The notes under the pieces are model-generated. The model was given only the letters and a program-made list of their open reading frames with translations. It ran no database searches and was not told the origin of the DNA. A stretch of DNA of 23,551 nt from a virus, in IMG/VR virus record IMGVR_UViG_3300050821_006219, positions 1 to 23,551 of that record, one strand, 5' to 3'. The position numbers and the translations under genes were made by a program. Of the stretch, positions 2,545 through 17,914 are shown piece after piece; position 1 is the stretch's first letter, and every line of letters starts with the position of its first letter.

Positions 2545-3032
2545 GCAGCCCCCGCCTGCGACGAAATATCCTTGCCTAGCCTTGCCTTCCTGCGCCACGC
2601 CGCGCCTAGCTTCGCCTCGCCAGACCACGCCCGGCCATGCAGGGCCTCGCCTTGCGTAGATGAGTTGATCTGCGAGATTTGCGGCCTCACCGCCCCCCAC
2701 AGTTCGAGAATTTTGATCGGCTGATCGCGGCCATAGGTCACGGCGTAGGGGACGCCGCGCGCGATCATCAGGAGCTTAAAGGCGTTCTGCGGCTCCGACA
2801 GTTTGCCGTCGTCGGCCTTGAGTTCCAGCCATCCCGTCCGGTCGCCGAGCGTAGGCGACATCACGACGAGGTCGAACAAGCCGCGCGTTAGGCCTGCTTG
2901 ACCAGCAGCTCGCGCATTTGGCACGGCGGCGACCAGGGAACCGGGAACTTGGAGGGCCTTCCAATGATCCAGCACAGCCTGCTGGATGAGGCTCTCGCGC
3001 GGCGCAAAAATATTTCGACGACGCCGCGCCAT
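2541..3032 (-). CDS. VRR-NUC domain endonuclease with array-encoded tail
   Basis: This encodes 163 residues. Residues 13-118 match the VRR-NUC branch of PD-(D/E)XK nucleases. They show ESLIQQAVLDHW, VPNARAAGQAGL, TRGLFDLVV (D54), GWLELKAD (E70, K72), LSEPQNAF (Q82), then GVPYAVTYGRDQPIKILELW. Phage VRR-NUC proteins act on DNA, probably on branched or flap substrates, and are usually 100-120 residues with nothing after the final helix. Here residues about 126-154 (QGEALHGRAWSGEAKLGAAW and on) are read from a pentanucleotide array. The stop overlaps the next ATG (ATGA). The gene follows the XRE regulator (stop at 3043) by about 10 bp. The tail is likely a passive extension, but this is not proven. 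Confidence 0.8.
   Translation of the reverse strand: MARRRRNIFAPRESLIQQAVLDHWKALQVPGSLVAAVPNARAAGQAGLTRGLFDLVVMSPTLGDRTGWLELKADDGKLSEPQNAFKLLMIARGVPYAVTYGRDQPIKILELWGAVRPQISQINSSTQGEALHGRAWSGEAKLGAAWRRKARLGKDISSQAGAA
2567..2656 (-). repeat. Pentanucleotide array 1 (GGCNN on reverse strand, 18 units)
   Basis: Read on the reverse strand, 18 consecutive 5-mers stay in perfect phase over 90 bp: CGCAA, GGCGA, GGCCC, TGCAT, GGCCG, GGCGT, GGTCT and so on, ending GGCTA, GGCAA, GGATA. Positions 2-3 of the unit are nearly always GC. The array lies inside the 3' end of the VRR-NUC gene, directly before the ATGA junction with the next gene. Two of the three reverse frames are open. The third is closed by TAG from GCTAGG. 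Confidence 0.85.
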
Positions 3033-3042
3033 CGCATGCCCC

Positions 3043-3411
3043 TCAGGCTGCTCGAAAAAACTCGGGCGAAACTTCCTGCAGGCGCTTGATCAGGCGGACG
3101 CGCTCCTCGACCACCGGCAAGGGGCCGAACATGTCGAGCCGCGCCTCAGGCGCCAGAACCGCAAGCCAGCGCAGCGCCAATTCCAGCGACGGCGCGCGGC
3201 GGCCCATCTCAATCGAGGTGAGGTGCAGCCGGGTGATGCCGATCTTCGCGGCGAAGTCCCGTTGCATCATGCCGGGATATTTCTGCTGTCGCAGCGCCAT
3301 CAGCTCTTGGAGGGGGGCTTGGCGCGGCGGGCGTTTATGCGGCTTTTGGTCCATCTGGACAAGATGCCGCTGGACCTGCTCTGTCGTCAATAGAATATTT
3401 GCGCTGTCCAC
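3043..3411 (-). CDS. XRE-family helix-turn-helix regulator (phage repressor/Cro-like)
   Basis: This encodes 122 residues from a GTG at 3411; an internal ATG (MDQKPHKRPP) is an alternative. Residues about 36-86 form an XRE-type helix-turn-helix: LMALRQQKYPGMMQRDFAAK, then IGITRLHLTSIEMGRRAPSL, then a hydrophobic closing helix (ELALRWLAVLAP). There is no C-terminal peptidase domain, so this is not a LexA/CI-type self-cleaving repressor. It is read away from the forward early operon and sits beside three palindromes at 3434-3485, its likely operators. The probable job is control of early genes and of its own operon, which also holds the VRR-NUC and 2077-2544 genes. Confidence 0.75.
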   Translation of the reverse strand: MDSANILLTTEQVQRHLVQMDQKPHKRPPRQAPLQELMALRQQKYPGMMQRDFAAKIGITRLHLTSIEMGRRAPSLELALRWLAVLAPEARLDMFGPLPVVEERVRLIKRLQEVSPEFFRAA

Positions 3412-3428
3412 AAGGTAACGACCGTTTT

Positions 3429-3485
3429 GTTAACTGTTAACAGGATCTGTAAACTGTTAACACGGGATCTGTAAACAGTTAACAG
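3429..3485. promoter_or_regulatory. Triple palindromic operator region
   Basis: Three 10-bp sites share the GTTAAC core: CTGTTAACAG (3434-3443, a perfect palindrome), CTGTTAACAC (3454-3463) and CAGTTAACAG (3476-3485). Centres lie 20 and 22 bp apart, about two helical turns, so proteins would sit on one DNA face. An extra GTTAAC (3429-3434) abuts the first. The first two sites are embedded in a longer direct repeat (ACTGTTAACA ... GATCTGTAA). Placement between the divergent regulator and ERF gene is typical of a phage control region. The binding protein is inferred. Confidence 0.7.
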
Positions 3486-3520
3486 ACGTGCGAATACTTG
3501 TGGACGACCCCTTATTACCG

Positions 3521-3549
3521 TTGACAGCTCGATGGCGCGGGGACAACCT
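3521..3549 (+). promoter_or_regulatory. Possible early promoter
   Basis: A consensus TTGACA (3521-3526) lies 47 bp before the ERF start and just downstream of the operator sites. At 17 bp spacing the -10 position reads CAACCT (3544-3549), a poor match, so the promoter call is tentative. A GGGAG ribosome site (3560-3564) precedes the ATG at 3573. Confidence 0.35.
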
Positions 3550-3572
3550 GGGGCTTTGCGGGAGCGATCTTA

Positions 3573-4400
3573 ATGAGCGATACTCAATCGACGGCGGCTG
3601 CGGTCCCTTACCAGTCGGCCGACGTTGCGCCGCCCTCGGAGCCGTCAACTGTCGCCGGGGGCGGCGGCCTGCTCGTGATGATCGAGCGGCTCGCCACCAA
3701 TCCGCAGCTCAACATCGAGGTGTTCGACCGGCTCCTGACCGCGCGCCGCCAAGAGGAGGACCGCGCCGCCGAGCGCGCCTTCAACCTCGCGATGAGCCTC
3801 GCCAAGGGCGAGCTTCAGCCGGTCCTGAAAACACGCGACGTTGACTACCCGTCGAGGAAGGAGGGCGGCGCACGCACCAAGTACAAGTACGAAAGCTTCG
3901 CCGATGTCGCCAAGGTCGTCGACCCGGTGTTCGCCGCGCACGGCCTCGCCTACCGCTTCGCCGTCGAGCAGGGCGGCGATCTGGCCAAGGTCACCTGCAT
4001 CATCTCGCACAGCGAGGGCTACAGCGACCGCGTCAGGCTGGAAAGCAAGGTCGACCCAGGCTCGACCGGCATGAGCTGGGTGCAGGCGCTGGGGACGGTC
4101 CTGACCTACCTGCAACGCTATTCGCTGCGCGCGGCCATCGGCCTCGCCGCTGGCGTCGACGACGACGGGCGCGGCGCGGGCGGAACATCGCCGAAGATCG
4201 TCCCCGAACAGGCCAACGAACTGCGCCAGCTTTTCGACGAGACGGGCCGCAGCCCGGCCGGGACGCTCAACCTCCTCGGCGTCGCTGAGATCGAGGACAT
4301 GACCGTCGACCAGTTCATGCGGGTCAGGGCCGCGCTCAACCTCGCCAAGGCCGAGCAGAGGCGCACCAAGCCAGGGAACGACAATGCTCCAAGGAACTGA
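3573..4400 (+). CDS. erf: ERF-family single-strand annealing protein
   Basis: This encodes 275 residues. The ERF core runs from about residue 36 to 195: a helical N-part (LLVMIERLATNP, EEDRAAERAFNLAMSLAKGE), the family signature KYKYESFADVAKVVDPV (103-119), GLAYRF and VTCIISHSEGY strands, and GMSWVQALGTVLTYLQRYSL (166-185) leading to RAAIGLAAGVDDDG. ERF proteins bind single-stranded DNA and anneal complementary strands, supporting phage genome circularisation and recombination. The C-terminal third carries a segment (IVPEQANELRQLFDETGR) often seen as a small helical domain after ERF and RecT-like cores. ATG at 3573 has a GGGAG site. It overlaps the exonuclease gene by 17 bp, making a two-component recombination pair. 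Confidence 0.9.
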   Translation: MSDTQSTAAAVPYQSADVAPPSEPSTVAGGGGLLVMIERLATNPQLNIEVFDRLLTARRQEEDRAAERAFNLAMSLAKGELQPVLKTRDVDYPSRKEGGARTKYKYESFADVAKVVDPVFAAHGLAYRFAVEQGGDLAKVTCIISHSEGYSDRVRLESKVDPGSTGMSWVQALGTVLTYLQRYSLRAAIGLAAGVDDDGRGAGGTSPKIVPEQANELRQLFDETGRSPAGTLNLLGVAEIEDMTVDQFMRVRAALNLAKAEQRRTKPGNDNAPRN

Positions 4401-5025
4401 CGAATGGCGCCAAGCGCGCTGCGGGTCGATAGGCGCGTCCGACGCGCCGCGCGTCGTGAGGCGCATCAAGAGCGGCGGCTACAGCGCGGATCGCGAGAGC
4501 CTGATGGCGGAAAAGGTTCTCGAACGCCTGACCTTGACGCCGTTCGAGAAGTTCAAGAGCGCCGCCATGCTGAGGGGGATCGAGCGCGAGCCTGAAGCGC
4601 GCCTGCTCTACTCGATGGTGCGCGGCGTCGAGGTCGAGCAGGTGGGCCTCGTCGAGCACACGTTCATCAAGGGCTCGCACGCCTCGCCCGATGGCTTCGT
4701 CTTGCAGTTCGGCGGCACGGCGATAGAGGGGCTGATCGAGATCAAATGCCCAGAGCCCGCAGCGCACCTCGACACGCTGCTCACCGAGACGATCAGCAAC
4801 GACTACACCGTGCAGATGACGTGGCAGATGGCCTGCACCAAGCAGGCATGGTGCGACTACGTCTCGTTCAATCCCGACTTCCCGCCGCACATGCAGCTCT
4901 GGATCTCGCGCATCCACCGCGACGCGGGGCTCATCGCCGAGCTGGAGCGCGAGATCGCGCAGTTCATCAAAGAACTCGACCAGAAGGTCGACAAACTCTC
5001 ACGCCGCTATGCGGTGGCGGCATGA
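4384..5025 (+). CDS. YqaJ/lambda-type exonuclease of the recombination pair
   Basis: This encodes 213 residues. The YqaJ-like viral recombinase fold is clear. It opens QGTDEWRQARCGSIGASDAP (typical QgsxeWxxaRxGxiTaS start), then GIEREPEARLLY (65-76), SPDGFV with D103, GLIEIKCPEP with E119 and K121, and YTVQMTWQMACT with Q about 144. These are the metal-binding D-ExK and helix residues of lambda exonuclease-type enzymes that digest 5' strands of double-stranded DNA to give 3' tails for the partner ERF protein. The end is a long helix (AELEREIAQFIKELDQKVDK). It starts 17 bp inside the ERF gene. Its stop sits in an ATGA at the edge of pentamer array 2. Confidence 0.9.
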   Translation: MLQGTDEWRQARCGSIGASDAPRVVRRIKSGGYSADRESLMAEKVLERLTLTPFEKFKSAAMLRGIEREPEARLLYSMVRGVEVEQVGLVEHTFIKGSHASPDGFVLQFGGTAIEGLIEIKCPEPAAHLDTLLTETISNDYTVQMTWQMACTKQAWCDYVSFNPDFPPHMQLWISRIHRDAGLIAELEREIAQFIKELDQKVDKLSRRYAVAA

Positions 5026-5269
5026 GCATGGCCATGCAGTCCTATGCTGGGCGATGCATGGCGCGGCAGCGCGACGCGCGTCTCGGCAGGGCGATGCGGG
5101 GCGTGGCATGGCCCGGCGCGGCAAGGCAGGGCAACGCTGTGCATGGCGGGGCCGGGAACGGCAAGGCGCGGCTACGCGCGGCGAGGCATGGCAAGGCTCT
5201 GCGGGGCCGGGCAGGGCACGGTCTGGCATGGCCTTGCGCGGCGCGGAGATGCTCGGCGAGGCGAGGCTT
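5025..5269 (+). repeat. Pentanucleotide array 2 (GGCNN, 49 units)
   Basis: Forty-nine consecutive 5-mers (245 bp) hold phase without an indel from AGCAT at 5025 to GGCTT at 5265-5269. Typical units are GGCAT, GGCGC, GGCAA, GGCAG, TGCAT, CGCGC and TGCGG. Positions 2-3 are almost always GC. All three forward frames are open. The frame from the ATG at 5022 (overlapping the exonuclease stop as ATGA) continues for 94 codons to 5306, past the next gene's start at 5290. The array fills the entire interval between exonuclease and the next ribosome site. Confidence 0.9.
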
Positions 5270-5289
5270 AACAACGAAAGGAAAAGCGC

Positions 5290-5889
5290 ATGTTCATCGA
5301 GATTGAAGTAGCAGGAACCACACCGTTAATTTGCAACCGTTTTACTGACGAGGCGGCGATGGCCTCGACCAATGGCGACCGGGGCTCCTCGGCCGGAATG
5401 GATCGCGGCACGCCGCTGGAGATCGCGGCGTCGAAGCTCTACCTCGGCGTCGGCGGCAAGCCGATGATCCCGTCGCCCAACTTGCTGCGGTCCATCGTCG
5501 ACGGCGGCATGCACACGAAAATCGGCAAACGGCAGATCACGACGGCGCGCTCGTCGTTGCTGTACGCCTGCCTGTCGATTGAAGCGGCCGAGATCGATAT
5601 TATCCACGACCAGCCGTGGAAGGTCGACACGCGCCCGGTTCGCATTCCTTCGACCGGCGGGCGCATCCTCTGCCACCGGCCCATGTTCGATGACTGGAAG
5701 CTCGCGTTCGAGGTCGACCTCGACACGACCATTCTGAACGCGAAGCTCCTGCGGCAGATCGTCGACGATGGCGGTAAGAGGGTCGGCCTGGGCGACTTCC
5801 GGCCGGTCTGCAAAGGCCCGTTCGGCAAGTATCTCGTCACGCGGTGGGCCGAGCAGCAGGCCCAGGCCACGACGCGACTGGCGGCGTGA
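5290..5889 (+). CDS. Conserved phage protein of the recombination module
   Basis: This encodes 199 residues. The ATG at 5290 follows AAGGA by about eight bases. The pattern (TTPLICNRFTDEAA, GKPMIPSPNLLRSIVDGG, QITTARSSLLYACLSIE, QPWKVDTRPVRIPSTGGRIL, HRPMFDDWKLAFEVDLD, then GLGDFRPVCKGPFGKY) is one I recognise from many phage genomes, always unnamed. It occupies the place next to an ERF/exonuclease pair where a single-strand binding protein often sits. The Gly-rich GLGDFRP...KGPFGKY loop (167-181) recalls the RNA- or DNA-contacting Gly loops of RAMP/Cas7-type folds. Both roles are speculation. There is no signal peptide or membrane segment. Confidence 0.75.
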   Translation: MFIEIEVAGTTPLICNRFTDEAAMASTNGDRGSSAGMDRGTPLEIAASKLYLGVGGKPMIPSPNLLRSIVDGGMHTKIGKRQITTARSSLLYACLSIEAAEIDIIHDQPWKVDTRPVRIPSTGGRILCHRPMFDDWKLAFEVDLDTTILNAKLLRQIVDDGGKRVGLGDFRPVCKGPFGKYLVTRWAEQQAQATTRLAA

Positions 5890-5897
5890 AATTCCCT

Positions 5898-6127
5898 GGC
5901 AATGCGGGGCGAGGCAGCGCGTGGCGAGGCAAGGCGTGGCTATGCGCGGCTCGGCATCGCAAGACCGGGCTATGCCGGGCGTGGCGACGCGAGGCGTGGA
6001 GTGGCGCGGCTACGCGCGGCAAGGCGTGGACCGGCGCTTCGCGGAGTGGCGAGGCAAGGCGCCGCCGGGCCGGGCGAGGCGCGGCGTTGCATGGCGTGGT
6101 CCGGCGAGGCCAGGCAAGGCAAGGAAC
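5898..6127 (+). repeat. Pentanucleotide array 3 (GGCNN, 46 units)
   Basis: Exactly 46 phased 5-mers (230 bp) run from GGCAA at 5898 to GGAAC at 6123-6127 without an insertion or deletion. Only a few units lose the GC core (GACCG, GGAGT, GGACC, TTCGC, GGTCC, GGAAC). All three forward frames and at least one reverse frame are open. GGCTA occurs three times and is always followed by T or C, so no in-array TAG forms. It lies between the genes at 5290-5889 and 6185-6679, starting eight bases after the stop codon. Confidence 0.9.
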
Positions 6128-6184
6128 TTTTGAAATCATGACCCGCAGCGGCCAGCCAAAACCCACTACTGCCGGGTAGCGCCC

Positions 6185-6679
6185 ATGTTGCGTTTCACGT
6201 GGAACGGCGCAGCGATGATCCCGACGAAGCTCCTGGCGGCGGTCAAGGCCTACGAGCCGGGCCGCCGGTACTGGCTTGAGGAGGTGAGCGACCGGAGCTG
6301 GATCAGCCACCGGCATGAGTTCGCATTCGTCGCCAATGCCTGGGACAATCTGCCTGAGGCGCTCGTCGAGACGTTCCCGACGAGCGAGCATTTGCGCAAA
6401 GCCGCGCTGATCGCCACCGGCTGGTATCGCGAGATGATCATCGAGGCTGGCAACGCGGCGGCGGCGCTGCGGGTCGCCGCCTACGCGCGCAGCAAGGACG
6501 AGTTCAGCCATGTCGTCACGCGCGGCCCGACGGTCATCGTGCGCTGGGCGCGCAGCCAGCGCATGCACGGCCAGGACCGGATGGACAAGGCCGAGTTCCA
6601 AAAGTCGAAAGACGACATCCTGCACTGGATCTCGCAATTGATCGGCGTCGATCCTGAGCGCCTCAGGGGGGCGGCGTGA
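6185..6679 (+). CDS. DUF1367-like phage protein
   Basis: This encodes 164 residues from the ATG at 6185; ATG at 6218 (MIPTKLLAAV) is possible. The layout EVSDRSWISHRHEFAFVANAW, NLPEALVETFPTSEHLRKAALI, GWYREMIIEAGNAAAALRVA, VVTRGPTVIVRWARSQRM and FQKSKDDILHWISQLIGVDP matches a common phage family resembling DUF1367, usually placed among recombination and replication genes. Biochemical function is unknown. There is no strong ribosome site. A 13-codon reading frame (6138-6179, MTRSGQPKPTTAG) with an AAGGAA upstream ends five bases before the start and might drive reinitiation. Its stop overlaps the HNH gene start (GTGA). Confidence 0.65.
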   Translation: MLRFTWNGAAMIPTKLLAAVKAYEPGRRYWLEEVSDRSWISHRHEFAFVANAWDNLPEALVETFPTSEHLRKAALIATGWYREMIIEAGNAAAALRVAAYARSKDEFSHVVTRGPTVIVRWARSQRMHGQDRMDKAEFQKSKDDILHWISQLIGVDPERLRGAA

Positions 6680-7026
6680 TCCGCATCGCGTTCTCGTCGG
6701 CCTCGAAGCGCGCCATCACGCTCCGCGCCACCGACTTGAAGGGGCGCATATGGTGCGAGCTGTGCGGCGTCGAGTGCTTGTCGCGCGCCGACTACGAGAT
6801 CGATCATGTGGTGGCCGAGGGCATCCTGCCCGCCAATGACAACCGGCCCCCGCTCACCGCCGAGGACGGAAAATTGTTGTGCCTGAAGTGTCACGACAAA
6901 AAGACTAGGCGCGACGTGCGCGAGATCTCCAAGACCAAACGCCTGGAGGGCAAGCACCGGCCCATCGACGGCGGCCCGACGGAGATCGCCCGGCGCTACC
7001 GCATCCGCCAGGAGCCCCACAGATGA
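6676..7026 (+). CDS. HNH endonuclease
   Basis: This encodes 116 residues starting at GTG 6676, overlapping the previous stop as GTGA. A zinc-supported HNH motif is visible: WCELCGVEC with Cys27 and Cys30, EIDHVVAEG with Asp43-His44, and LLCLKCHDKKTRRD with Cys69, Cys72 and His73. The final K-T-xx-D form is typical of phage HNH enzymes that nick or cut DNA, often linked to packaging or to early DNA metabolism. Length and motif spacing suit a free-standing single-domain HNH enzyme. It lies between the DUF1367-like gene and the small exported protein, with overlaps on both sides, so it is part of the same operon. Confidence 0.85.
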   Translation: MIRIAFSSASKRAITLRATDLKGRIWCELCGVECLSRADYEIDHVVAEGILPANDNRPPLTAEDGKLLCLKCHDKKTRRDVREISKTKRLEGKHRPIDGGPTEIARRYRIRQEPHR

Positions 7027-7466
7027 CCGTACGCGGCCTTTGGCTCGCTTTGGCTCTATTTGGCTCCGCGCCGACGGAGGCGGCGGCTCACTGCTATTCC
7101 CGCTGGCACTACCCCAGGCCGCAGCGGTGCCAAGTTGAAGGCCGAGTAGCGCGAGAGATGGCGCGCTGGCCTCAAGCGCCAAGTCGGCGAGTGGCGCAAA
7201 TAACCCCGACAGTCGGCGAGCAGGCTATTCTGCCATCATCTCCCCCCCTGCTGCGCCGACACAATCCCGAAAGGGGACACAACCCGACAAAATTTCGCGA
7301 AGTTCTGTCCCCCCTCGCCATATCAAATCAGGAACATGCTGCGAACAAACTAGGTATCCTCCTTCCCAGCCTCGCCAGCGCCGATCTCGACGGCGGCGAG
7401 GCGGATGAGCCCACCCGCGCAAAGGTCCTGCTACGGGCCGCCATGGAGGCGTTGGATGCCCACTAA
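7023..7466 (+). CDS. Small exported phage protein (AHCYSRWHYP type)
   Basis: This encodes 147 residues from an ATG overlapping the HNH stop (ATGA), with AGGAG about eight bases upstream. Residues 1-22 (MTVRGLWLALALFGSAPTEA plus AA) look like a cleavable signal peptide. Immediately after comes HCYSRWHYPRPQRC, a motif I recognise from small secreted proteins of alphaproteobacterial phages, with two Cys that could pair in the periplasm. The rest is Pro/Arg-rich with a helical end (RAKVLLRAAMEALDAH). Function is unknown. A role in the cell envelope or superinfection is possible. The middle is low in constraint, and the frame overlaps the next gene by 11 bp. Confidence 0.6.
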   Translation: MTVRGLWLALALFGSAPTEAAAHCYSRWHYPRPQRCQVEGRVAREMARWPQAPSRRVAQITPTVGEQAILPSSPPLLRRHNPERGHNPTKFREVLSPLAISNQEHAANKLGILLPSLASADLDGGEADEPTRAKVLLRAAMEALDAH

Positions 7467-7668
7467 GGTCAATGGTCCCCTGATCGAGGACTACAAGCGG
7501 GCGCTGAAGGCGGCGAAGTGGGCGGGCGTCAAGGCGGTGCGCATCGAAATCGGCCAGGGGGCTATTGTCCTGATCATGGATGATACTTATCTGGAGAAGT
7601 TGGCGTTGGGCCAACCTCCCGCACAGGAATTAAACGGGGAGGGGAAGCTGCCAAAGCCGAACTGGTAA
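7456..7668 (+). CDS. Small hypothetical phage protein
   Basis: This encodes 70 residues. I chose the ATG at 7456 because GGAGG (7445-7449) lies six bases upstream. An in-frame start at 7405 reads through the previous gene and is less likely. The sequence EDYKRALKAAKWAGVKAVRI then IEIGQGAIVLIMDDTYLEKL looks like a helix followed by two strands, a common small early phage fold, but I do not recognise a family. It ends about 10 bp before the integrase gene and is probably cotranscribed with it. Confidence 0.6.
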   Translation: MPTKVNGPLIEDYKRALKAAKWAGVKAVRIEIGQGAIVLIMDDTYLEKLALGQPPAQELNGEGKLPKPNW

Positions 7669-7678
7669 GGGACTGAAA

Positions 7679-8800: not shown

Positions 8801-9108
8801 GGGGCGTCCTCACCATCATCCAGGTCGACGGGGCCGTCAGTTCGGAAGAGCTGGCGGCCCCGCCTGCTTTGGAGGACCTCCAGGGCGGCGTAGGCGGCTA
8901 CATCGAGCTGGTCCCATACTTCACCAAGTACAAGGGCAGGCCGTGCGTGGCCTTCTGCGACGAGGACGGCAAGCGCAAGGGCCTCCCCGTCAACCAGCGC
9001 GCCACCTCTCTCTGGCACGCCCTGGTGGCTGCTCTGCGTGGCCGCGATGTCCTCGTCGGCCCCATCGTGATCATAACCGGCGACCGCGAACTCATGGAGG
9101 AGCTGTGA
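8797..9108 (+). CDS. DUF3846-domain protein
   Basis: This encodes 103 residues from a GTG overlapping the integrase stop. The family pattern is clear: LEDLQGGVGGYIELVPY, then CDEDGKRKGLPVNQRATSLW, then DVLVGPIVIITGD. DUF3846 proteins typically read LQxxVGGYIExVP ... NExGxxxxLPxNxxAT ... GxxVV and occur in phages and plasmids, sometimes next to anti-restriction genes. Function is unknown. An insertion (FTKYKGRPCVAF) between the first two blocks gives a slightly long form. The final codons overlap the zinc-ribbon gene start (TGATG). The family suggests an early accessory role. That is inference. Confidence 0.7.
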   Translation: MRGVLTIIQVDGAVSSEELAAPPALEDLQGGVGGYIELVPYFTKYKGRPCVAFCDEDGKRKGLPVNQRATSLWHALVAALRGRDVLVGPIVIITGDRELMEEL

Positions 9109-10477: not shown

Positions 10478-10478
10478 G

Positions 10479-10784
10479 ATGACCGCGTACTACGTGGCGG
10501 CGGGCAACCGCTACTTTTGGCAAACCCTCGGCGTTCAGGCGACGAGCGCCGACGCCGCAGCCGAGGCGTTCCGCGCCTACCTCGCCGCGCCCGCGCAGCA
10601 GACGGCCGAGGCCTACGAGCTGGAGCAGGCCGAGCAATTCGGGTCCGACGGCTCCGAGGGCGAACTCGACCGCGCGAGCTACGTCTACGACTTCGACGAC
10701 GGCATCATCGAGGAGTGCGACGAGCCCGACGCGCCCAAGGTCGGCGAGACTGTGCGCATGCTCGACAGCGGAGGGAACGGCTGA
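10479..10784 (+). CDS. Small acidic hypothetical phage protein
   Basis: This encodes 101 residues from the ATG at 10479, behind GGAAGG. The N-terminal half begins MTAYYVAAGNRYFWQTLGVQ and looks like a small folded unit. The C-terminal half is strongly acidic (YELEQAEQFGSDGSEGELDR, YDFDDGIIEECDEPDAP). I recognise no family. Such acidity is seen in DNA-mimic anti-host proteins among others, but nothing specific supports that. The gene is first of a small forward operon, and its stop overlaps the next ATG (TGATG). Confidence 0.6.
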   Translation: MTAYYVAAGNRYFWQTLGVQATSADAAAEAFRAYLAAPAQQTAEAYELEQAEQFGSDGSEGELDRASYVYDFDDGIIEECDEPDAPKVGETVRMLDSGGNG

Positions 10785-11002
10785 TGGCTCTCCAATTAGG
10801 CGCGCTCCGCGAGGCGCTGCTCGACGCGGGCGCGAGTACGGAGAAGGCCGACAAGGCCTCCGAGGAATTAGCCGGATACGACAGCGACCTCAAACTGCTG
10901 AAATGGATGGTCGGCGGGCTCTACGCCGTGCTGGTTGGCCTCGGTCTGCCCGCTCTGTGGCTGCTGCTGCGCCTCGCGGCGAAAGCGGGGGCGCTACCGT
11001 GA
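10784..11002 (+). CDS. Small phage membrane protein with N-terminal helix
   Basis: This encodes 72 residues. The pattern LGALREALLDAGASTEKADK, then ASEELAGYDSDLKLLKWMVG, then one transmembrane helix (GGLYAVLVGLGLPALWLLLRL), matches a frequent phage and prophage type (an LxxALxxAGxxxxxAxxAAEE helix, then an LKLLKWM-TM end). It should be anchored in the inner membrane with the helix on the cytoplasmic side. Function is unsettled. It could be a holin-like or regulatory membrane protein. It is coupled to the previous gene by TGATG and followed by pentamer array 4. Confidence 0.65.
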   Translation: MALQLGALREALLDAGASTEKADKASEELAGYDSDLKLLKWMVGGLYAVLVGLGLPALWLLLRLAAKAGALP

Positions 11003-11014
11003 TAACGCCCCCAC

Positions 11015-11104
11015 TCGCCGTGCCGAGCCAGCCGATGCCTCGCAGCTCCGCGCGCCGCCTAGCAGCGCCTTGCCGCTCCTGGCCGCGCCGTGCCAGCCAT
11101 GCGC
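11015..11104 (-). repeat. Pentanucleotide array 4 (GGCNN on reverse strand, about 18 units)
   Basis: On the plus strand, units of the form NNGCC (TCGCC, GTGCC, GAGCC, ATGCC, then GCGCC, TTGCC, TGGCC, GCGCC, GTGCC) keep one 5-bp phase over about 90 bp. A few units are degenerate (AGCCG, GCTCC, TAGCA, AGCCA). The array is looser than arrays 1-3. The G-rich strand is opposite to the genes at 10479-11293. It fills most of the gap between the 72-residue and 44-residue membrane protein genes. Confidence 0.7.
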
Positions 11105-11158: not shown

Positions 11159-11293
11159 ATGCAAACCATCGCGACCATCGTCATCGTCATCGCTTGCTTA
11201 GGCACTGCGCTGGCCGGGATCGTTTGGGCGGTCCAGATCTGCAGGAACTGGCTCCAACGCGCGACGGCGCTAATACGGCAGCATTGCCCTTAG
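11159..11293 (+). CDS. 44-residue single-span membrane protein
   Basis: The ATG at 11159 has GGAG seven bases upstream and the frame ends at TAG 11291-11293. Translation gives MQTIATIVIVIACLGTALAG, then IVWAVQICRNWLQRATALIR and QHCP. One long hydrophobic segment (residues 4-27) is followed by a basic tail, so the protein should insert in the inner membrane with the tail in the cytoplasm. Size and topology suit a small holin, a superinfection-exclusion peptide or a lysis accessory, but no family is recognisable. It follows the other small membrane protein and overlaps the convergent late gene by 24 bp. Confidence 0.55.
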   Translation: MQTIATIVIVIACLGTALAGIVWAVQICRNWLQRATALIRQHCP

Positions 11294-12214
11294 GTTTTGC
11301 AACGCGGTCTGGGCGTTGCCCCAGTTCGGGGACGCCGCCAAGTTCCCCAAGTTCTGGCCAGCGTCTGTCTGGGCTGCGGCTGGCTGTCCGCCGATAATCA
11401 CCTGCTGGATAGCCTGCTTAAGCCAAGGTGGCGGATCGGGTATGGAGCTGATCACGTTGCCTGCCTTTTCGGCGAAAGGCTTCACGAAGTTCTCGCTGAA
11501 TTTGTCGGCCATCCACCCCGTTCCAAAGTCGCCGCCGACTTTGTAGCCAATTCCCGCTGGGGCCTTCTCGATCCCATAGCGTACAATCGGGGCGACACTG
11601 CTTGGCTTCACGCCGCCGAGGATCTTGGCCGCCACGCCCGTCTCAGCGCCCGTGCGCGCGTCGGCGCCGATGGTCGACCAATCGTTCCCCTGGTTGAAGC
11701 TCGACAGCCCTCGATCTACGACGCCCTGCACGATTGGGCCGCCGAACCTGTTCAGCAACATATCTGGCGGCGTGAACTGAGCGCCGATGTCAGCGATGGC
11801 CTTCTGTGCTGGCGGCATCTGCGCGTCCATCTTCTGACGCTGGGCGCGCAGCGTCACCAAGTCGCCGCCGCCCACCGCCGACGTGATTGGATCGGCGGCG
11901 TTTTTGAGGACGTTGTTGGTGAAGCGGTCGACGATGTTGTGTTCCCCCTGCGAGCCAGGACCCCAGCCAGGGCCGAACACTGACCAGAAATTGCCCCCCG
12001 GCGGCGGATAGGACACGCCCGGCGTCCCCCGGTTCGTCAATCCAAAATGAAACTGCCCCAGATCGAAGCCGCCGGGGGCCGGGGCGTTGGGATCGGCGCT
12101 CGATTGCGGAGGAGGCGGGGCAGACGCCTTCGGTGCAGCAGCCGTCTGTGGCGCCGCAGGCGCGGCAGGCGTCTCGCGGGTTCTGAAATGCTCCTCGCCG
12201 GAAAATGCGCCCAT
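11270..12214 (-). CDS. Low-complexity probable virion protein, last gene of the late operon
   Basis: This encodes 314 residues. The N-terminal 60 or so are Ala/Pro-rich (PAAPAAPQTAAAPKASAPPP). The centre has helical and Gly-rich parts (NIVDRFTNNVLKNAADPITS, LRAQRQKMDAQMPPAQKAIA). The end is helical (WLKQAIQQVIIGGQPAAAQT, AQTALQNLRAMLPY). I recognise no family. Its place after the tail hub and virion hydrolase genes, in the position of P22-type ejection proteins, suggests a virion or ejection role. ATG at 12214 lies one base after the previous stop. The 3' end overlaps the convergent 44-residue gene. Confidence 0.6.
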   Translation of the reverse strand: MGAFSGEEHFRTRETPAAPAAPQTAAAPKASAPPPPQSSADPNAPAPGGFDLGQFHFGLTNRGTPGVSYPPPGGNFWSVFGPGWGPGSQGEHNIVDRFTNNVLKNAADPITSAVGGGDLVTLRAQRQKMDAQMPPAQKAIADIGAQFTPPDMLLNRFGGPIVQGVVDRGLSSFNQGNDWSTIGADARTGAETGVAAKILGGVKPSSVAPIVRYGIEKAPAGIGYKVGGDFGTGWMADKFSENFVKPFAEKAGNVISSIPDPPPWLKQAIQQVIIGGQPAAAQTDAGQNLGNLAASPNWGNAQTALQNLRAMLPY

Positions 12215-12215
12215 C

Positions 12216-13814
12216 TCACAGCCTCAGGTTTTGCAGGGGCTTCACATCGTAGTTGTTGGCGCGTGCGATCTTGATCAGGATTTGCCGCTCCTTTTCGGGG
12301 TCCTGCGCCGCCTTCATCTTCGCCGTCGCCTGGGCGATGTCGTCATTGCTCATCGGCATGGTCTTTTTGCCGAAGGGGTACATCGAGCCGCCCGGCAGGT
12401 AGGCGTCATTGATCAGCGGCTTGGTGTAGTCGGGCGCGTTCTCCGCTTCGCCCGCCGCGCCGTAGCCGTTGCCGAGCGCCTGATCAGCGGAGGTGATTGT
12501 CGTCTTGACGCCGTCGAGGTACCTGTCAAACCCCTTCCTGAGGTTTGTCATGTCATTTAGACCGGCGTTGAGTTCGGACACGTCGGATTGGCCGCGCCTC
12601 GGAGCGCGCTGGCCGAGCGTGCCGTACAGCGATTTCGGATCGGTCGTGGCCCTGACCTCGTCGAGGACAGCCTTCTCTTCCGGGGACAGCGCCGCGCCCA
12701 ACGCCTGCGTCGTTAGATCCTTCGGATCGGCTGAGAGATAGGCCTGCGCGCCCGGCTTCGATAGGGCGCTCTTGAGCAGCGCCTGCTTGGCCTGATCGTA
12801 GTCATCGGGATTGTTGGGATTGCCGCCGGGCTTGAGGCCGATGATGTTGCCGAGGTGGCCGCGCAGCTCGGTGATGTTCTGCTCGTAGCCCTTGTGGAGC
12901 TTGTCGCGCGCGTCCTCCTGATCCTTGACCATCTCGCCCTGCTTGGCTTTCCAGAGCCCGTAGGAGGAGGGGTTGTTGTCGCCCCACGGGTACGGCTCGC
13001 CGGGATGGTCGCGATCCCACATGATGCGATCCGTTTGCCAGCTCTTGGTCGTGGCGTCGCCGCCGCCAGCGCCGCCAGAGATGATGAACGGCAGGTAGTT
13101 GCGCTGCCAATCCTGTTCGGCGGCCTCTGGCGTCTGGCCCTGCGCGACGGCTCCCTTGATGAACATGTCGTGTTTCGCCTGGATGTCGCGCGTCTCGGTC
13201 GTCGGCTCCGACGCCTTGACGAGATCAGGGCCGCGACCGGCCATGATCTCCGCGCGCACGGTCCCCTCGTCCATGTTGAGCTTCTGCGCGATCTGAGGCG
13301 CCTGGGCGAGCAACTGCTGCTGCGCCGCCATCTGGTTCTGGGTGTTGTAGAGGCTCATCAGGTTGCCAACCGTCTGGCCCGCATCCTGGCCGCCGCCGGT
13401 CAGGGACTGCATGATGGCTTGGCGCATGCTGGGCGGCGAGTGGTTCGCGGCGATCAGCGCCAAGCCGCTATTAAACCCCTGCATCGCCTGATCGCGCTGC
13501 TGCATCTGCATGTAGAGGCTCATCAGGTTCGGCGGATTGGCGAGCGTCTGGTAGCTCGCCGACATGTCGGGCGACGACTGCAGCACAGTCGGCTGCGGCT
13601 GCGAGCCGGGAGGCGCGGGTTGTCCTGGCGCTGGGTTCGGCGCGTTGGGATCGGCGGCAGCGGGTCCAGCAGGCGCAGGGGGGCTCGCGCTTGGAGGACC
13701 CGCGCCTTGCGGAGGCGCTCCTTGGGGCTGCTGCCCAGAGAGCATCGCCGCGAGCTGCCGAGACGGATCGGGCTGGCCAGATAATGCCCACAATAAATTT
13801 GCTATACCGGCCAC
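12216..13814 (-). CDS. Large low-complexity probable ejection/virion protein
   Basis: This encodes 532 residues from GTG at 13814 with AAGGGA eight bases upstream. Residues 20-85 are Pro/Ala/Gln-rich. Residues about 90-190 are Gln- and Met-rich and helical (SLYMQMQQRDQAM, NQMAAQQQLLAQAPQIAQKL). Then comes a mixed charged body with a possible coiled coil (MVKDQEDARDKLHKGYEQNI). The C-terminal part repeats helical blocks (LSPEEKAVLDEVRATTDPKS). No enzyme motif is visible. Length, composition and order in the operon resemble podovirus internal/ejection proteins, but this is inference from context. Upstream (13815-13968) lie array 5 and a hairpin, so expression may be set apart from earlier late genes. 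Confidence 0.65.
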   Translation of the reverse strand: MAGIANLLWALSGQPDPSRQLAAMLSGQQPQGAPPQGAGPPSASPPAPAGPAAADPNAPNPAPGQPAPPGSQPQPTVLQSSPDMSASYQTLANPPNLMSLYMQMQQRDQAMQGFNSGLALIAANHSPPSMRQAIMQSLTGGGQDAGQTVGNLMSLYNTQNQMAAQQQLLAQAPQIAQKLNMDEGTVRAEIMAGRGPDLVKASEPTTETRDIQAKHDMFIKGAVAQGQTPEAAEQDWQRNYLPFIISGGAGGGDATTKSWQTDRIMWDRDHPGEPYPWGDNNPSSYGLWKAKQGEMVKDQEDARDKLHKGYEQNITELRGHLGNIIGLKPGGNPNNPDDYDQAKQALLKSALSKPGAQAYLSADPKDLTTQALGAALSPEEKAVLDEVRATTDPKSLYGTLGQRAPRRGQSDVSELNAGLNDMTNLRKGFDRYLDGVKTTITSADQALGNGYGAAGEAENAPDYTKPLINDAYLPGGSMYPFGKKTMPMSNDDIAQATAKMKAAQDPEKERQILIKIARANNYDVKPLQNLRL

Positions 13815-13850
13815 GTTCTTTATCCCTTAAGGTTGGCCCGCCGGTAACAC

Positions 13851-13946
13851 GGCAATGGCATGGCGGTGCTCGGCGGTGCGAGGCCCAGCAGTGCAGAGCG
13901 GGGCAAGGCAGCGCAGGGCTTGGCGCGGCAAGCCAAGGGAGGGCCG
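13851..13946 (+). repeat. Pentanucleotide array 5 (GGCNN, 18 phased units)
   Basis: After GGCAA at 13851 and one extra T, units from 13857 (GGCAT, GGCGG, TGCTC, GGCGG, TGCGA, GGCCC, AGCAG, TGCAG and on to GGCAA, GCCAA, GGGAG, GGCCG) keep phase to 13946. The G-rich strand is plus, opposite to the late genes. The last two units merge into the left arm of the hairpin at 13939-13967. The array fills most of the gap between stop 13969 and start 13814. Confidence 0.8.
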
Positions 13947-13967
13947 AGCCCGCAAGGTTCGGCCCTC
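13939..13967. terminator. Terminator-like hairpin joined to array 5
   Basis: GAGGGCCGA (13939-13947) and TCGGCCCTC (13959-13967) are perfect inverse arms around an 11-base loop. The hairpin starts one base after the reverse stop codon (13969-13971). No T-run follows on the reverse strand. It may attenuate late transcription or protect the 3' end of the upstream message. A hairpin in the same arrangement with an array is found at 17874-17893. Confidence 0.55.
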
Positions 13968-13968
13968 T

Positions 13969-14643
13969 TCATTGTTGCGGCCGGTTCTGGATGCCGCGCA
14001 AGGCGTTCAAAAAGTTTGCGTTCATTCCTTGCCCTGCGCCCGCCTGCTGCAGGAAGGCGTTATTCACACCGCCAGACGGTTGATAGCCGGTGACCTGCGG
14101 CACGGTCGCGCCCTGCGTCTGCACGCGGCCGGGGTTGGCCAAGGCGTTGATCGCGGCCTGCCAGTTGTTGGGCGGCCCGCTCGCCTGCTGCTGCGGCGCG
14201 GCCTGCTGCTGCATGCCCGCCGCCTGCCCCGGCATCTGCCCAGGCTGGGCGAATTGCTGGTTACGATACAGCTCCTGCGCCTGCGGGCTCATCATGCCGC
14301 CCCAGTTGGCCATGCCGAAGGCTTGGTTGCCAGACGGGTTGAGCGGGGACCGTCCCGCAAGCTGGCTCGGCTGCAAGCCGTATGTTTGGGGCGCGGCGGC
14401 GGGCGCGGCGGGCGTCGTGTTGATGCTCATGCCGCCGGGGTTGGCTTGCTGCCATTGCTGGAACGACTGGATCGGCTGGCCGGTCGCGGCGTTGACCGGC
14501 CCTCCCGCTCCCGTGTTGTAGGTCGGCGGCCAGGGCAGCGCGGCGTTGTTGTAGTTGGAGAACTGGTTCGACTTCTGCGTGGGGTCGAACATGGTCGGAT
14601 CGACCATCCACATGTCGGTGAGCTGGGCCATATTCTGAGCCAT
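13969..14643 (-). CDS. Gln/Pro/Asn-rich probable virion protein
   Basis: This encodes 224 residues from the ATG at 14643, with GGGAG six bases upstream; GTG at 14646 is one codon earlier. The sequence opens MAQNMAQLTDMWMVDPTMFD and is then rich in Gln, Pro, Asn, Ala and Gly (MQQQAAPQQQASGPPNN, QPGQMPGQAAG), with a helical end (NNAFLQQAGAGQGMNANFLN). No domain is recognisable. It lies between the virion hydrolase and the 532-residue protein and shares their composition, so a structural or ejection role is inferred. The stop is followed at once by a hairpin and array 5. Confidence 0.6.
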   Translation of the reverse strand: MAQNMAQLTDMWMVDPTMFDPTQKSNQFSNYNNAALPWPPTYNTGAGGPVNAATGQPIQSFQQWQQANPGGMSINTTPAAPAAAPQTYGLQPSQLAGRSPLNPSGNQAFGMANWGGMMSPQAQELYRNQQFAQPGQMPGQAAGMQQQAAPQQQASGPPNNWQAAINALANPGRVQTQGATVPQVTGYQPSGGVNNAFLQQAGAGQGMNANFLNALRGIQNRPQQ

Positions 14644-14654
14644 CACATGCTCCC

Positions 14655-15983
14655 TTACTGTCGAGCGTACATGTCATAGGGCGAAAGCGAGCCGCTCATC
14701 AGCGCCATCTGCAATTGGCCGGGCGAGTTGAGCGTCGTCCCCGGCATCGCGGGCATGCCGGTCGCTTGGCCGGGCGCCATCGGCTGGATCGTCGACTGGA
14801 TCGTCGAGGGGACGACAGGCTGGACGCCGCCGCCGCCGAACGCGGCCAGCGTCGGCTGCATCATGTAGCCCTGCTGGGCGAGCGCGTTCTCCGCCGCTCT
14901 GGCGCCGAACGTGTTCTGGCCGCCCGCCCCCATCATCATCGGGCCGCCCATCGCCCGCGCGGGGGGAGCCTGCATGAGCTGCATCGGCTGCGGCTCGTCG
15001 GCCTGACCGCCGTCCCCGCCCGCGCCCTTGCCCCCCGGCGTCAGCGGCTTCAATGCGCTCGCCAATTGGCCCGCCAAGCCCCCTGATGGCGCTGCGGGCT
15101 GTCCTGGGGCGGCAGGAGCCGCAGGGCCGCCAGCGGGCGTCGTAGAGGCTGCTGGAGGGTTTATGGCGTTCGACTGGATCACGCCGAGGGGCTGGGACGT
15201 GTCGATGCCTGGATATTTGGCCAGGACCGCGTTGACGGTCGACGACGCCCAGCGGTTGAGCGGGATCTGGTTCGCCACCGCGATCTGCACGTCGCGAGGC
15301 GCGCTGTCGGGCGTGGGGTACTTCTTGAGGTCGACGCCCGCCTTGGGAGCGAAGTCGGTCCACGTGCCGGTCGTGATCTGGGCGTTGCCCTGCGCCTGCC
15401 CGCTCGATGTCGTCTGGCGGGTGTTGTTGATGTTGCGGTCGCCGCTCTCGGCATTGAGGACGATGTCCAGCGGGCTCGAGTTGAGCGAAGTCCCCGGCGT
15501 CGTCGAGGCGACGCGCGTCGGCGCAGCCGTCGGGCCGGTGTAGGCGATGGCGCCGGTCGCGGGCGCGGGCTGGCTCTGAGGCCGCCAGTTGGCGAGATGG
15601 TACTCGTTGATGTCGCTGGCGAGGTCGCCGCCCAGTTGGATGTGGCCCTTGTCGCTCATGCCGATCCCGCTCAGGCCGTAGGTCGGGGCCATGGCCTGGA
15701 GGCGCGCATAGTCGTTTGGGTTCGTGAGATTGAAATCGGCGGCGAGGCCGTAGTTGTGGAACGAGCGCCACGGCGCTGCGACGACGGAAGGCGCTTCGAC
15801 GTTCGGGTAAGGCAGCGGTTGCCCGGCGACCTTCGCCTGATGATTGGCGTACATCTGCCCCTGGTACTCAGGCGAGCGATAGCCTGAGACGAGACTGTTC
15901 CCGATGCCCTCCTTGTTCAGCGCCTCGCGGAGCTGGCCGAGCCTTAACGAGAATATTGGATTGAGGTCGCTGAAGTCAGCCAC
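14655..15983 (-). CDS. Virion peptidoglycan hydrolase: M15 peptidase plus transglycosylase
   Basis: This encodes 442 residues. I chose GTG at 15983 (VADFSDLNPIF) because GGGAGG lies six bases upstream and the longer frame to 16121 only shadows the previous gene. Residues about 12-118 match M15-type D,D-carboxypeptidase/endopeptidases: LVSGYRSPEYQ, SFHNYGLAADFNL with zinc ligands His76 and Asp83, and KGHIQLGG with His114. Residues about 171-255 match phage lytic transglycosylase domains: LDIVLNAESGDRNINNTRQT with Glu179 as probable catalytic acid, SSGQAQGNAQITTGTWTDFA, then IPLNRWASSTVNAVL. Residues after 275 are Ala/Pro/Gly/Met-rich. Two bond specificities in one virion protein would open the cell wall during DNA ejection. 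It overlaps the previous gene by 8 bp. Confidence 0.8.
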   Translation of the reverse strand: MADFSDLNPIFSLRLGQLREALNKEGIGNSLVSGYRSPEYQGQMYANHQAKVAGQPLPYPNVEAPSVVAAPWRSFHNYGLAADFNLTNPNDYARLQAMAPTYGLSGIGMSDKGHIQLGGDLASDINEYHLANWRPQSQPAPATGAIAYTGPTAAPTRVASTTPGTSLNSSPLDIVLNAESGDRNINNTRQTTSSGQAQGNAQITTGTWTDFAPKAGVDLKKYPTPDSAPRDVQIAVANQIPLNRWASSTVNAVLAKYPGIDTSQPLGVIQSNAINPPAASTTPAGGPAAPAAPGQPAAPSGGLAGQLASALKPLTPGGKGAGGDGGQADEPQPMQLMQAPPARAMGGPMMMGAGGQNTFGARAAENALAQQGYMMQPTLAAFGGGGVQPVVPSTIQSTIQPMAPGQATGMPAMPGTTLNSPGQLQMALMSGSLSPYDMYARQ

Positions 15984-17427
15984 GCAGGCCTCCCGCGACG
16001 CGCGGCATGGGCATCTGAGGCCGCATGCGCTGCGGTCGCATGTTCGCGCCGAGCGCGCCGTTGAGCCCCATCGGCTGCGGCGGCGCGAGCGCCCCCGGCA
16101 CCCGCGTGGCGAATGCGCCATTGGCGCCCGGCATGCGCTTCGGCCGGATCGCAGGCCCGTTGTCGTTCGCGGGCATCGCGCCCATCGGCGGCCCGGCTTG
16201 ATTGAGCGCGTTCATGTTGACGGTATGCAGCGCCTGCCCGGTGGGCGCATGCACGCCCACCGTCTGGACCGCGTGCGGCGCGACCTGCATCGCGTCCTCG
16301 GCCATCGGCCCGGTGACCTTGGGGAAGCTCTTCGGATCGCCCTTATAGCGATAGCTGTAGAGCGGCAGGCCCGTCGCCGGATGGGTCCCAACCTTGGTGA
16401 TGTCGGTCTTGAGATGCCGGTCTGAGCCGCCGCCGAACAAGGCCGCCAACCCGGTCAACGCGCTTGTGCCGCCAGCCGGTGCGGAGGCCAGACTGCCGAG
16501 CGACTGCAAGCCGCCCGTGATATCGGCCATGAGCGACGGGGTCGTCGTCTGTTGCGTCTGCCCGGTCTGCGAGCCCATGGTCGTCGAGCCGTAGGGCGTC
16601 ATGCCGAGCGCCGATTGCAGGACGCCGAGCTGCTGGCCGGGATAGGCGTTCGCCTGATTGAACTGGTTCATCTGCGCCTGGATCTGGTTTTGCGCCTGCT
16701 GCTGCTGCTGCGCGCCAGCGGTGCTTTCCTCCAAGAATTGCTGGCGCTGGTTCTGTTGCGCCTGCGAGCCGAGCGAGCCGAGCCCGCCCGCCGCCTGGAT
16801 CAGCGAATTGATGTTGGCTTGGTTGGCGTTCTGGTTGCCCTGCGCCGCCTGGAGGTTGCGGCTGATGTCGCCGGTCGCCGCCGCCTGCGCCTGCTGGAAG
16901 TTGGCTTGGTTCAACTGGCTCGCCATTTGGCCGATGTTGAGCGCGCCCTGCGCTTGCGCCACGCCCTGCTGCACGCCCTGCCGCGAGCCGCCGAAGGCGT
17001 TCGCGCTGTTCGCCTGATTGGCCTGCTGGTTCTGGGCGAGCGCGTTCTGCTGCTGCATCAGCGGCAGCGTCGCGTTGATGACGCTCTGCGTGTACGGGTT
17101 CATGTAAGGCTGCAGGTTGGTGTTCGAGAGCTGCTGCGCGTTGACCTGCGTCGCGGGCGTCCCGGCCGCCGTGAGATAGCCAGCCTGCGCGGCGTTGTAC
17201 TGATCGGCGCCCGCGCCGCCGCTGGTCGCCGCCAAGTTCCAGGCTTGCTGGGTTTGCGGGCCGATGTCAGCGACCTGCTGTCCGCTGAACTGGGTCAAGG
17301 GCCTCATGGCGATATTTTCCGCGAGCGCATAGTTCTGCTGCGCGGCTTGATTGACCCACGGCGGCAACTGCGTCTGGCTGATGTTCTGCTGCTGCGAGGA
17401 AGTGTCGGTCGAGCCGGAACTGCCCAT
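15976..17427 (-). CDS. Gln-rich virion protein with S74-type chaperone domain
   Basis: This encodes 483 residues. The start region QTQLPPWVNQAAQQNYALAE, then YMNPYTQSVINATLPLMQQQ and AFGGSRQGVQQGVAQAQGAL, are signatures I know from podovirus virion proteins. Residues about 130-270 are extremely Gln/Asn/Ala-rich. At about 335-410 lies an S74-like intramolecular chaperone: SDRHLKTDITKVGTHPATGL, PLYSYRYKGD, GPMAEDAMQVAPHAV. S74 domains normally end a fibre, help it trimerise and cut themselves off before a Ser. Here about 75 Met/Pro/Arg-rich residues follow. ATG at 17427 lies one base after the upstream stop. Confidence 0.75.
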   Translation of the reverse strand: MGSSGSTDTSSQQQNISQTQLPPWVNQAAQQNYALAENIAMRPLTQFSGQQVADIGPQTQQAWNLAATSGGAGADQYNAAQAGYLTAAGTPATQVNAQQLSNTNLQPYMNPYTQSVINATLPLMQQQNALAQNQQANQANSANAFGGSRQGVQQGVAQAQGALNIGQMASQLNQANFQQAQAAATGDISRNLQAAQGNQNANQANINSLIQAAGGLGSLGSQAQQNQRQQFLEESTAGAQQQQQAQNQIQAQMNQFNQANAYPGQQLGVLQSALGMTPYGSTTMGSQTGQTQQTTTPSLMADITGGLQSLGSLASAPAGGTSALTGLAALFGGGSDRHLKTDITKVGTHPATGLPLYSYRYKGDPKSFPKVTGPMAEDAMQVAPHAVQTVGVHAPTGQALHTVNMNALNQAGPPMGAMPANDNGPAIRPKRMPGANGAFATRVPGALAPPQPMGLNGALGANMRPQRMRPQMPMPRVAGGLRG

Positions 17428-17428
17428 T

Positions 17429-17914
17429 TCAGAGTTCCTTCACGTAGAGATGGTTCGTCGACTTCAGCCGCCAGCCGAAGCGGCGGAAGCTTCCTTCGCG
17501 CAGCCAGCCGAGCCGCCCATAAGTCGAAAGCAACCCAGCGTTGACCTCGTCAGCGTAGGCCAGAATTTTGGCGTGTAGGGCGTCCACATCGGCGAGATCG
17601 CCTACATAGGCGACCAGCTCTAACTGCCGCGCCCGTGGAAAGTCGGCGACCTTCGTGATCGCCCAACTGTTGCCTTCGACGAACGACTGCATGCGCCCTT
17701 CGGCTATCGCGATCAAAATGTCCGACAAGAGGTACGTTCCGCCCATCCTGTCGAGTAGACGGCTCAATTTTCGATGGTAGGATGCAGCGTCGTCACGGTA
17801 CGGCAAGGCATGGCTCGGCATGCCTGGGCTAGGCAGGGCTGGGTCTTGCTTGGCGCGGCTTGGCAGAGCAAGGGGGGCGGCTTCGGCCGCCCCAACCGTT
17901 TCAAAGTCTGTCAT
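17429..17914 (-). CDS. Small GNAT-like phage protein with array-encoded N-terminal segment
   Basis: This encodes 161 residues from an ATG that overlaps the previous stop (ATGA). The conserved part starts near residue 45. It includes LLSDILIAIAEGRMQSFVEG, SWAITKVADFPRARQLELVA, YVGDLADVDALHAKILAYAD and GRLGWLREGSFRRFGWRLKS, a pattern I recognise from podovirus proteins encoded near the tail hub that look like shortened GNAT acetyltransferases. Enzyme activity is unproven. Residues 13-40 (APLALPSRAKQDPALPSPGM and on) are read from array 6, plus a hairpin just upstream at residues 8-14. Either the array expanded inside the gene, or true translation starts lower down, for instance at Met57 (17746), which lacks a good ribosome site. 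Confidence 0.65.
   Translation of the reverse strand: MTDFETVGAAEAAPLALPSRAKQDPALPSPGMPSHALPYRDDAASYHRKLSRLLDRMGGTYLLSDILIAIAEGRMQSFVEGNSWAITKVADFPRARQLELVAYVGDLADVDALHAKILAYADEVNAGLLSTYGRLGWLREGSFRRFGWRLKSTNHLYVKEL
17797..17876 (+). repeat. Pentanucleotide array 6 (GGCNN, 16 units)
   Basis: Sixteen phased 5-mers (80 bp) run GGTAC, GGCAA, GGCAT, GGCTC, GGCAT, GCCTG, GGCTA, GGCAG, GGCTG, GGTCT, TGCTT, GGCGC, GGCTT, GGCAG, AGCAA, GGGGG with no indel. The G-rich strand is plus, opposite to the gene that contains it. The final unit enters the left arm of the hairpin at 17874-17893. Confidence 0.85.
17874..17893. terminator. GC hairpin with TTCG loop joined to array 6
   Basis: GGGGCGGC (17874-17881) and GCCGCCCC (17886-17893) pair perfectly around TTCG with C-G closure, an unusually stable tetraloop on the plus strand (CGAA on the reverse strand). 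It lies 17 bases after the reverse stop at 17911 and inside the start of the 17914 gene. It could reduce transcription or translation of downstream late genes. No T-run follows on the reverse strand. Confidence 0.5.

Follow-up and report, generated by a model that had tools for sequence, protein, structure and literature searches.

GGCNN arrays of a viral contig as the very probable guide arrays of a VIPR system, with target matches in genes of sibling phages

We analyzed a window of 23,551 nucleotides (IMG/VR virus record IMGVR_UViG_3300050821_006219, positions 1 to 23,551), a 23.5-kb fragment of a virus contig carrying an integrase, an Erf annealing protein and a YqaJ exonuclease. Its open reading frame (ORF) 5290-5889 and six arrays of GGCNN units very probably constitute a VIPR (Viral Interference Programmable Repeat) system, in which the arrays are vrRNA guide arrays. 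As described in the main text of a 2026 preprint (PMC13142463), VIPR combines a RAMP protein with vrRNAs of alternating GGY and NN repeats. Only the NN dinucleotides read the double-stranded target DNA, with a one-base skip at the codon wobble position, and competing phages are repressed. According to the same text, a vrRNA comprises 9–16 repeats followed by an invariable structured 3' tail, and the natural targets presented are satellites and resident prophages. We further favor, with moderate confidence, a local arrangement in which every array has been placed next to a gene whose sibling allele it targets in codon phase, and is genetically linked to an altered version of that gene that confers immunity. 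Array and immunity would then spread together in a gene-drive-like manner, the guides being derived from the displaced or a rival allele by a process that interleaves two bases out of every three with GGC spacers.

The initial annotation of this DNA had listed six pentanucleotide arrays, and all six were recovered at the same coordinates, each phase-locked and far above shuffled sequence. The arrays and the gene that we refer to as vipr are as follows.

2567 to 2656, minus strand: array 1, 18 units, overlapping the 3' end of the nuclease-like ORF 2541-3032
5025 to 5269, plus strand: array 2, 49 GGC-NN units, upstream of and sense to vipr, ending 20 bp before its start codon
5290 to 5889, plus strand: vipr gene, 199 amino acids, phrog_4652; single-RRM RAMP protein with G-loop GLGDFRP
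5898 to 6127, plus strand: array 3, 46 units, beginning 8 bp past the vipr stop codon
11015 to 11104, minus strand: array 4, 18 units, orphan array
13851 to 13946, plus strand: array 5, 19 units, orphan array
17797 to 17876, plus strand: array 6, 15–16 units, orphan array

Scored over 75 bp, GGC phase was 0.84–0.93 in the arrays and about 0.60 at best in the rest of the window. Shuffled sequence, in which an equal period-5 signal would have spoken against the arrays, did not reproduce it, as the best scores among five first-order Markov shuffles were 0.60–0.67. Identity at lag 5 ranged from 0.48 to 0.60, with approximately 0.25 at most other lags. Identity at lag 15 was no higher than at lags 5 and 10; there is therefore no codon signal in the arrays, and an origin from coding repeats was rejected. 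None of the six arrays contains a phase shift, in agreement with the single, virtually indel-free 5-bp phase noted before. In the core, the middle G is kept at about 90–100%, the C at 72–94% and the first G at 68–88%, with T or C as its replacements, while the NN positions are variable. A slippage microsatellite was likewise rejected, given high NN entropy (also found in the arrays of other IMG/VR contigs described below) and an order of units that matters, which upholds the earlier statement that the arrays do not stem from recent slippage. No Rfam family matched anywhere in the window.

Other parts of that annotation needed correction. Two array length classes had been proposed, but arrays in relatives range from 13 to 129 units. 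Regarding the strand pattern, GGC is indeed sense to the genes in arrays 1–3 (minus, plus, plus), and arrays 5 and 6, both on the plus strand, do run against minus-strand genes; array 4, also described as opposing, lies at a convergent junction, where it opposes the upstream genes and is co-directional with the next one. The arrays are not all strictly intergenic either, since array 1 overlaps an ORF and array 6 falls inside ORF 17429-17914, in its 5' part, when that ORF is taken to start at its first ATG. On the other hand, the view of the arrays as a dispersed element of this phage group proved right; they form one family and are missing from many relatives.

The identification as VIPR rests on the protein as well as on the repeats. 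The ORF 5290-5889 protein matched phrog_4652 with an E-value of 2.3e-17, while a Pfam search with it returned no match. It matched the Vipr protein of SUSP1 (PDB 36pp_D) at 1.2e-4 on its own and at 3.7e-44 with a profile of the family alignment. An AlphaFold2 model built from an alignment of 76 relatives reached a predicted local distance difference test score (pLDDT) of 89 and a predicted template modeling score (pTM) of 0.85, and its best Foldseek matches were Csm3/Cas7 subunits (E-value about 1e-6). SUSP1 served as a positive control: its Vipr scored 1.8e-42 in the family model and a 12-unit array was present.

Arrays and vipr are tightly associated. A BLAST search with the region reached Mycobacterium F1 phages through the arrays only, and through the exonuclease it reached phages that bear YqaJ. 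In IMG/VR, at least 120 contigs with a GC content of 39–76% contained eight exact units, (GGCNN)x8, and the gene enclosed by array pairs in them was repeatedly a relative of ORF 5290-5889. By profile, a Vipr homolog was present in 85 of 120 viral contigs picked by this pattern alone versus 6 of 121 comparison loci (the window and bacterial contigs). The arrays in these contigs either follow the vipr stop codon by a few bases or lie a short way upstream of the gene, with GGC on the vipr sense strand in 104/105 arrays within 400 bp of the gene, some of the loci being redundant. Conversely, when named phages were sought only by similarity of the protein, an array adjoined vipr in all seven groups obtained (Cheoctovirus, UmaThurman, Ecliptus, Trine, MakoManhole, LESphi2 and Cy-LDV1, from mycobacterial, gordonial, cyanobacterial and Pseudomonas hosts), and whole named genomes show dense GGCNN matches beside vipr and almost nowhere else. 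Within the window's own phage group, arrays occur in 6/6 vipr-positive records and a clear array in 1/16 vipr-negative ones; co-occurrence was likewise seen in 13 Mycobacterium F1 phages checked. The family was too diverse for a profile-based search for relatives to succeed, and a pattern scan of bacterial genomes gave 120 matches with vipr in five loci, the rest looking like chance or coding matches in GC-rich genomes.

Several observations on individual loci were made along the way. L260 (G007:26356-26448), from the window's phage group, has one clear array and no vipr in 38.7 kb, which may reflect a lone array or a vipr gene outside the fragment. In the named isolates L251 (Pseudomonas phage LESphi2), L252-L257, L003 and L004, VIPR loci are annotated only as hypothetical proteins with long gaps between genes. 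A second family, phrog_15946 (motif HGFFEWDD..AA..YRL.QAR.LIR.I.V), recurs beside GGCNN arrays and vipr in L098, L112, L129, L109 and L096 and is a candidate accessory gene, and a ParB-like gene stands between or beside GGCNN arrays in the unrelated contigs L114 and L058. Finally, L005 (9713-9839) and L007 (1-127) are one contig with two vipr loci of about 88% similarity; where array 2 starts, a stretch of exactly 127 bases is identical between them, possibly through assembly overlap or recent recombination.

To find what the arrays read, we decoded them to their NN series and searched these at skips of 0–3 bases against sequences in which all arrays were masked. The first sequence set gave good matches at skip 1 only, all the best ones in relatives of the window. 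For the main search about 100 further relatives were added, for a total of 43 unique arrays and 1.57 Mb, and at most 3 mismatches in 22 were accepted. Skip 1 produced 225 matches (30 perfect), against 1, 1 and 2 at skips 0, 2 and 3. Targets were obtained for 19 real arrays and for 0–1 in controls (five unit-shuffled sets and reversed, swapped or complemented guides). The skipped base was consistent with the wobble phase in 35/37 sites, comprising 21 at codon position 3 and 14 in the equivalent register, position 1 of an antisense ORF. For example, an L007 array at the place of array 5 matches L006:11862 at 30/30 over 15 units, and an L329 array matches L331 at 30/30. Judged from such matches, the NN dinucleotides hold target information, two bases per codon, and the GGC core matches the VIPR guide-RNA scaffold; the earlier idea that the other bases vary freely must thus be given up. 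Because the decoded series match sibling genes in codon phase, synonymous changes do not escape.

These results also bear on a neutral explanation, in which the arrays are degenerate microsatellites or phased spacers that aid the exchange of gene modules. Their dispersal at gene boundaries and their varying presence and length among relatives would fit it. However, unit-shuffled guides lose their targets, so the order of NN is informative, and the arrays accompany vipr with GGC on its sense strand. This explanation is already refuted for some 20 arrays whose targets were matched, and overall we regard it as extremely unlikely. Of the proposals in the initial annotation, selection on spacing stands insofar as phase is under selection, while the half helical turn of DNA is beside the point. 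Similarly, the spacers said to promote module exchange are located at module boundaries, because each array adjoins a gene targeted in sibling phages, but they are not neutral spacers.

We then considered the targets of the window's own arrays. The array 1 guide matches the L005 allele of the nuclease-like ORF 2541-3032 (L005:7425, minus strand) at 16/16 over 8 units and 18/20 over 10, and the window's own allele lies at about 2720, 64 bp off. For array 4, the guide fits the site TAQANAYGAAG in sibling homologs of gene 12216-13814, at 20/20 over 10 units in L271, L330, L331 and L332 and at 21/22 in L005, L006 and L007; the own allele of this gene is 1474 bp away. The array 6 guide matches the sibling genes L275:5450, L294:11734 and L259:12446 (22/24 over 12 units; 21/22), with the own allele at about 17438, some 0.36 kb off. 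In the opposite direction, sibling arrays match the following sites in the window.

576 to 608, plus strand: site for L327 array 6009-6098, 22/22 over 11 units
2715 to 2756, minus strand: site for L005 array 7304-7408, GVPYAVTYGRDQPI codons in gene 2541-3032, 27/28 over 14 units
4848 to 4883, minus strand: YqaJ-gene site for L007 array 75-400, 21/24 over 12 units
6589 to 6621, minus strand: site for L327 array 12034-12645 in gene 6185-6679, 21/22
12008 to 12043, minus strand: site for L329 array 17600-17679, GLTNRGTPGVSY, 23/24
13504 to 13539, plus strand: site for L356 array 4002-4091, 22/24

The L005 guide thus reads the window's GVPYAVTYGRDQPI at two bases per codon. Since array 1 matches the L005 allele and the L005 array at that place matches the window allele, each phage targets the version of the gene that the other carries. 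The homologs of array 2 in L005 and L007 target the YqaJ of siblings; the YqaJ site (CDYVSFNPDFP) is also matched by L327 array 10617-10686. An L327 array at the place of array 3 targets homologs of the gene that follows it, 6185-6679. Read in antisense, array 5 gives A(N/K)LLFPLLGSP(D/E)P, close to the start of gene 12216-13814 (MAGIANLLWALSGQPDP). It may be a variant of the first residues of this neighbor gene, which predicts a sibling homolog of 12216-13814 starting with IANLLFPLLGSPDP.

Locality was quantified by locating the homolog of the target gene in the carrier and measuring its distance to the array, for 20 arrays. The homolog adjoins the array, with a median distance of 170 bp and 17/20 within 700 bp (combined Fisher p 2.4e-13). 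No array matched its own contig with two or fewer mismatches; carrier alleles have 3–9 mismatches at the target site and siblings 0–2. The same is seen in an independent group, where the L114 array lies 20 bp upstream of a gene with a terminase domain and reads KWCVFDV: four siblings have KWCVFDVMEKC and the carrier KWCIIDTLQKC. We infer that array and altered own allele are linked poison/antidote cassettes in warfare between sibling phages. Adjacency to the own copy of the target gene would equally suit autoregulation, with the array controlling the adjoining gene of its carrier and not of siblings; given the mismatches in own alleles and the lack of any close own match, we find this very improbable. 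About equally improbable is that the arrays are only a Vipr binding platform or structural RNA whose NN are left-overs of array copying from genes and guide nothing today. Some arrays do lack a target in the sequences compared, yet codon-phase matches of up to 30/30, wobble insensitivity and altered carrier alleles fit active targeting, and targeting is shown for type II systems in the preprint's main text (PMC13142463).

Several points weigh against the reading of the arrays as local VIPR guides. Targets of arrays 2, 3 and 5 were not found in the sibling set; against IMG/VR, the array 2 guide gave no match and the array 5 guide three 9-unit chance matches, none of which extends. Siblings were fetched by homology around known genes, a search in which targets outside this phage group could not show and which is therefore biased toward sibling targets, less so toward the same gene. 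Self-avoidance over all 18 pairs is modest, with 105 mismatches in carriers versus 86 from the rest of the gene (p 0.03), and the clearer value for nine pairs of similar genes (background at most 0.20; 50/200 versus 27.5 expected, p 8e-5) comes from a subset selected after the fact. Mycobacterium F1 siblings had no local target, nor had Gordonia siblings. As a separate observation, units 15–23 of Mycobacterium phage Quico match Squirty 10288 at 18/18 with skip 1, where about 0.1 is expected by chance; this match was left uncounted. Arrays 2 and 3, with 46–49 units and no tail, exceed the 9–16 repeats per vrRNA in the preprint. Among the neighbors of vipr (Erf, YqaJ exonuclease and phrog_15346, of unknown function) no vap gene was recognized, only the SUSP1 gene among vap1-6 being available for comparison. 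Finally, RNA production, protein binding and repression in the window phage are carried over by analogy from the preprint's account (PMC13142463).

Following that account, the arrays would be transcribed and Vipr monomers would line the RNA, one 5-nt unit each. GGC would hold the protein while the NN pairs would bind double-stranded DNA as NNxNNxNN and repress the target. In co-infection or superinfection of a lysogen, array and altered allele would disfavor siblings with the other allele, and the cassette would travel with its own immunity by recombination. The two arrays on either side of vipr would be carried by the operon mRNA. Those opposing genes end in a stable hairpin, which may terminate or cap a separate transcript. 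Arrays 1, 4, 5 and 6 have 15–19 units, and the last three end in the hairpins listed here.

10977 to 11020, minus strand: hairpin tail at the 3' end of array 4, -34.3 kcal/mol, z -4.6
13937 to 13969, plus strand: terminator-like hairpin tail at the 3' end of array 5, -28.3 kcal/mol, z -4.1
17872 to 17893, plus strand: hairpin tail with a UUCG loop at the 3' end of array 6, -21.7 kcal/mol, z -2.4

In relatives, a stable hairpin directly closes about half of the arrays, and those running into the ribosome-binding site of the next gene have no hairpin end. Two further features of the window were recorded. Two small genes adjoining array 4 (10478-10995) stand in swapped order in L005 (15490-16012), one of them 98% identical in surroundings of about 80%. 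Three imperfect, operator-like copies of TGTAAACTGTTAACAG lie at 3428-3485, in the stretch separating the Erf operon from the divergent gene 3043-3411.

VIPR is a recent discovery, only a few months old. A locality rule would explain the avoidance of self-targeting, the scatter of arrays over gene junctions and the origin of guides, and it offers a direct test of guide acquisition, a question of the ancestor type for CRISPR. What passed for 'hypothetical spacer DNA' would become a readable record of sibling conflict, with arrays that can be translated into peptide motifs, and the same system is present, unannotated, in phages commonly used for teaching (Mycobacterium F1, Gordonia).

Among known systems, class 1 CRISPR-Cas, with its Csm3/Cas7 backbone, shares the RAMP fold, the G-loop and RNA-guided recognition with periodic unpaired bases, but the window has a period of 5 nt instead of 6 and two of three target bases are read. 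A tandem repeat scan and the ORFs revealed no CRISPR repeats or spacers and no further cas genes in the window. TIGR-Tas (PMC12045711) resembles the window in its phage-encoded arrays with interspersed short guide pieces; Tas is, however, defined there by another RNA-interaction domain, and unit and code differ. The modeled Cas7-like fold of the window protein argues against membership in TIGR-Tas. Compared with VIPR as set out in the preprint's main text (PMC13142463), the core in the window is nearly always GGC with some TGC or CGC, arrays reach 49 units (129 in relatives), hairpin tails differ and no vap gene was recognized. Four window arrays lie apart from vipr, dispersed over 15 kb and in part on the opposite strand, and arrays of the window's group adjoin the gene that is targeted in siblings. 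Neither dispersed arrays (4/6 off vipr) nor arrays beside their sibling-target gene appear in that main text. What the two have in common, with the SUSP1 Vipr (PDB 36pp) as reference, is a homologous Vipr protein, GGY/NN arrays flanking vipr, a 1-nt skip in wobble phase and targets in competing phages.

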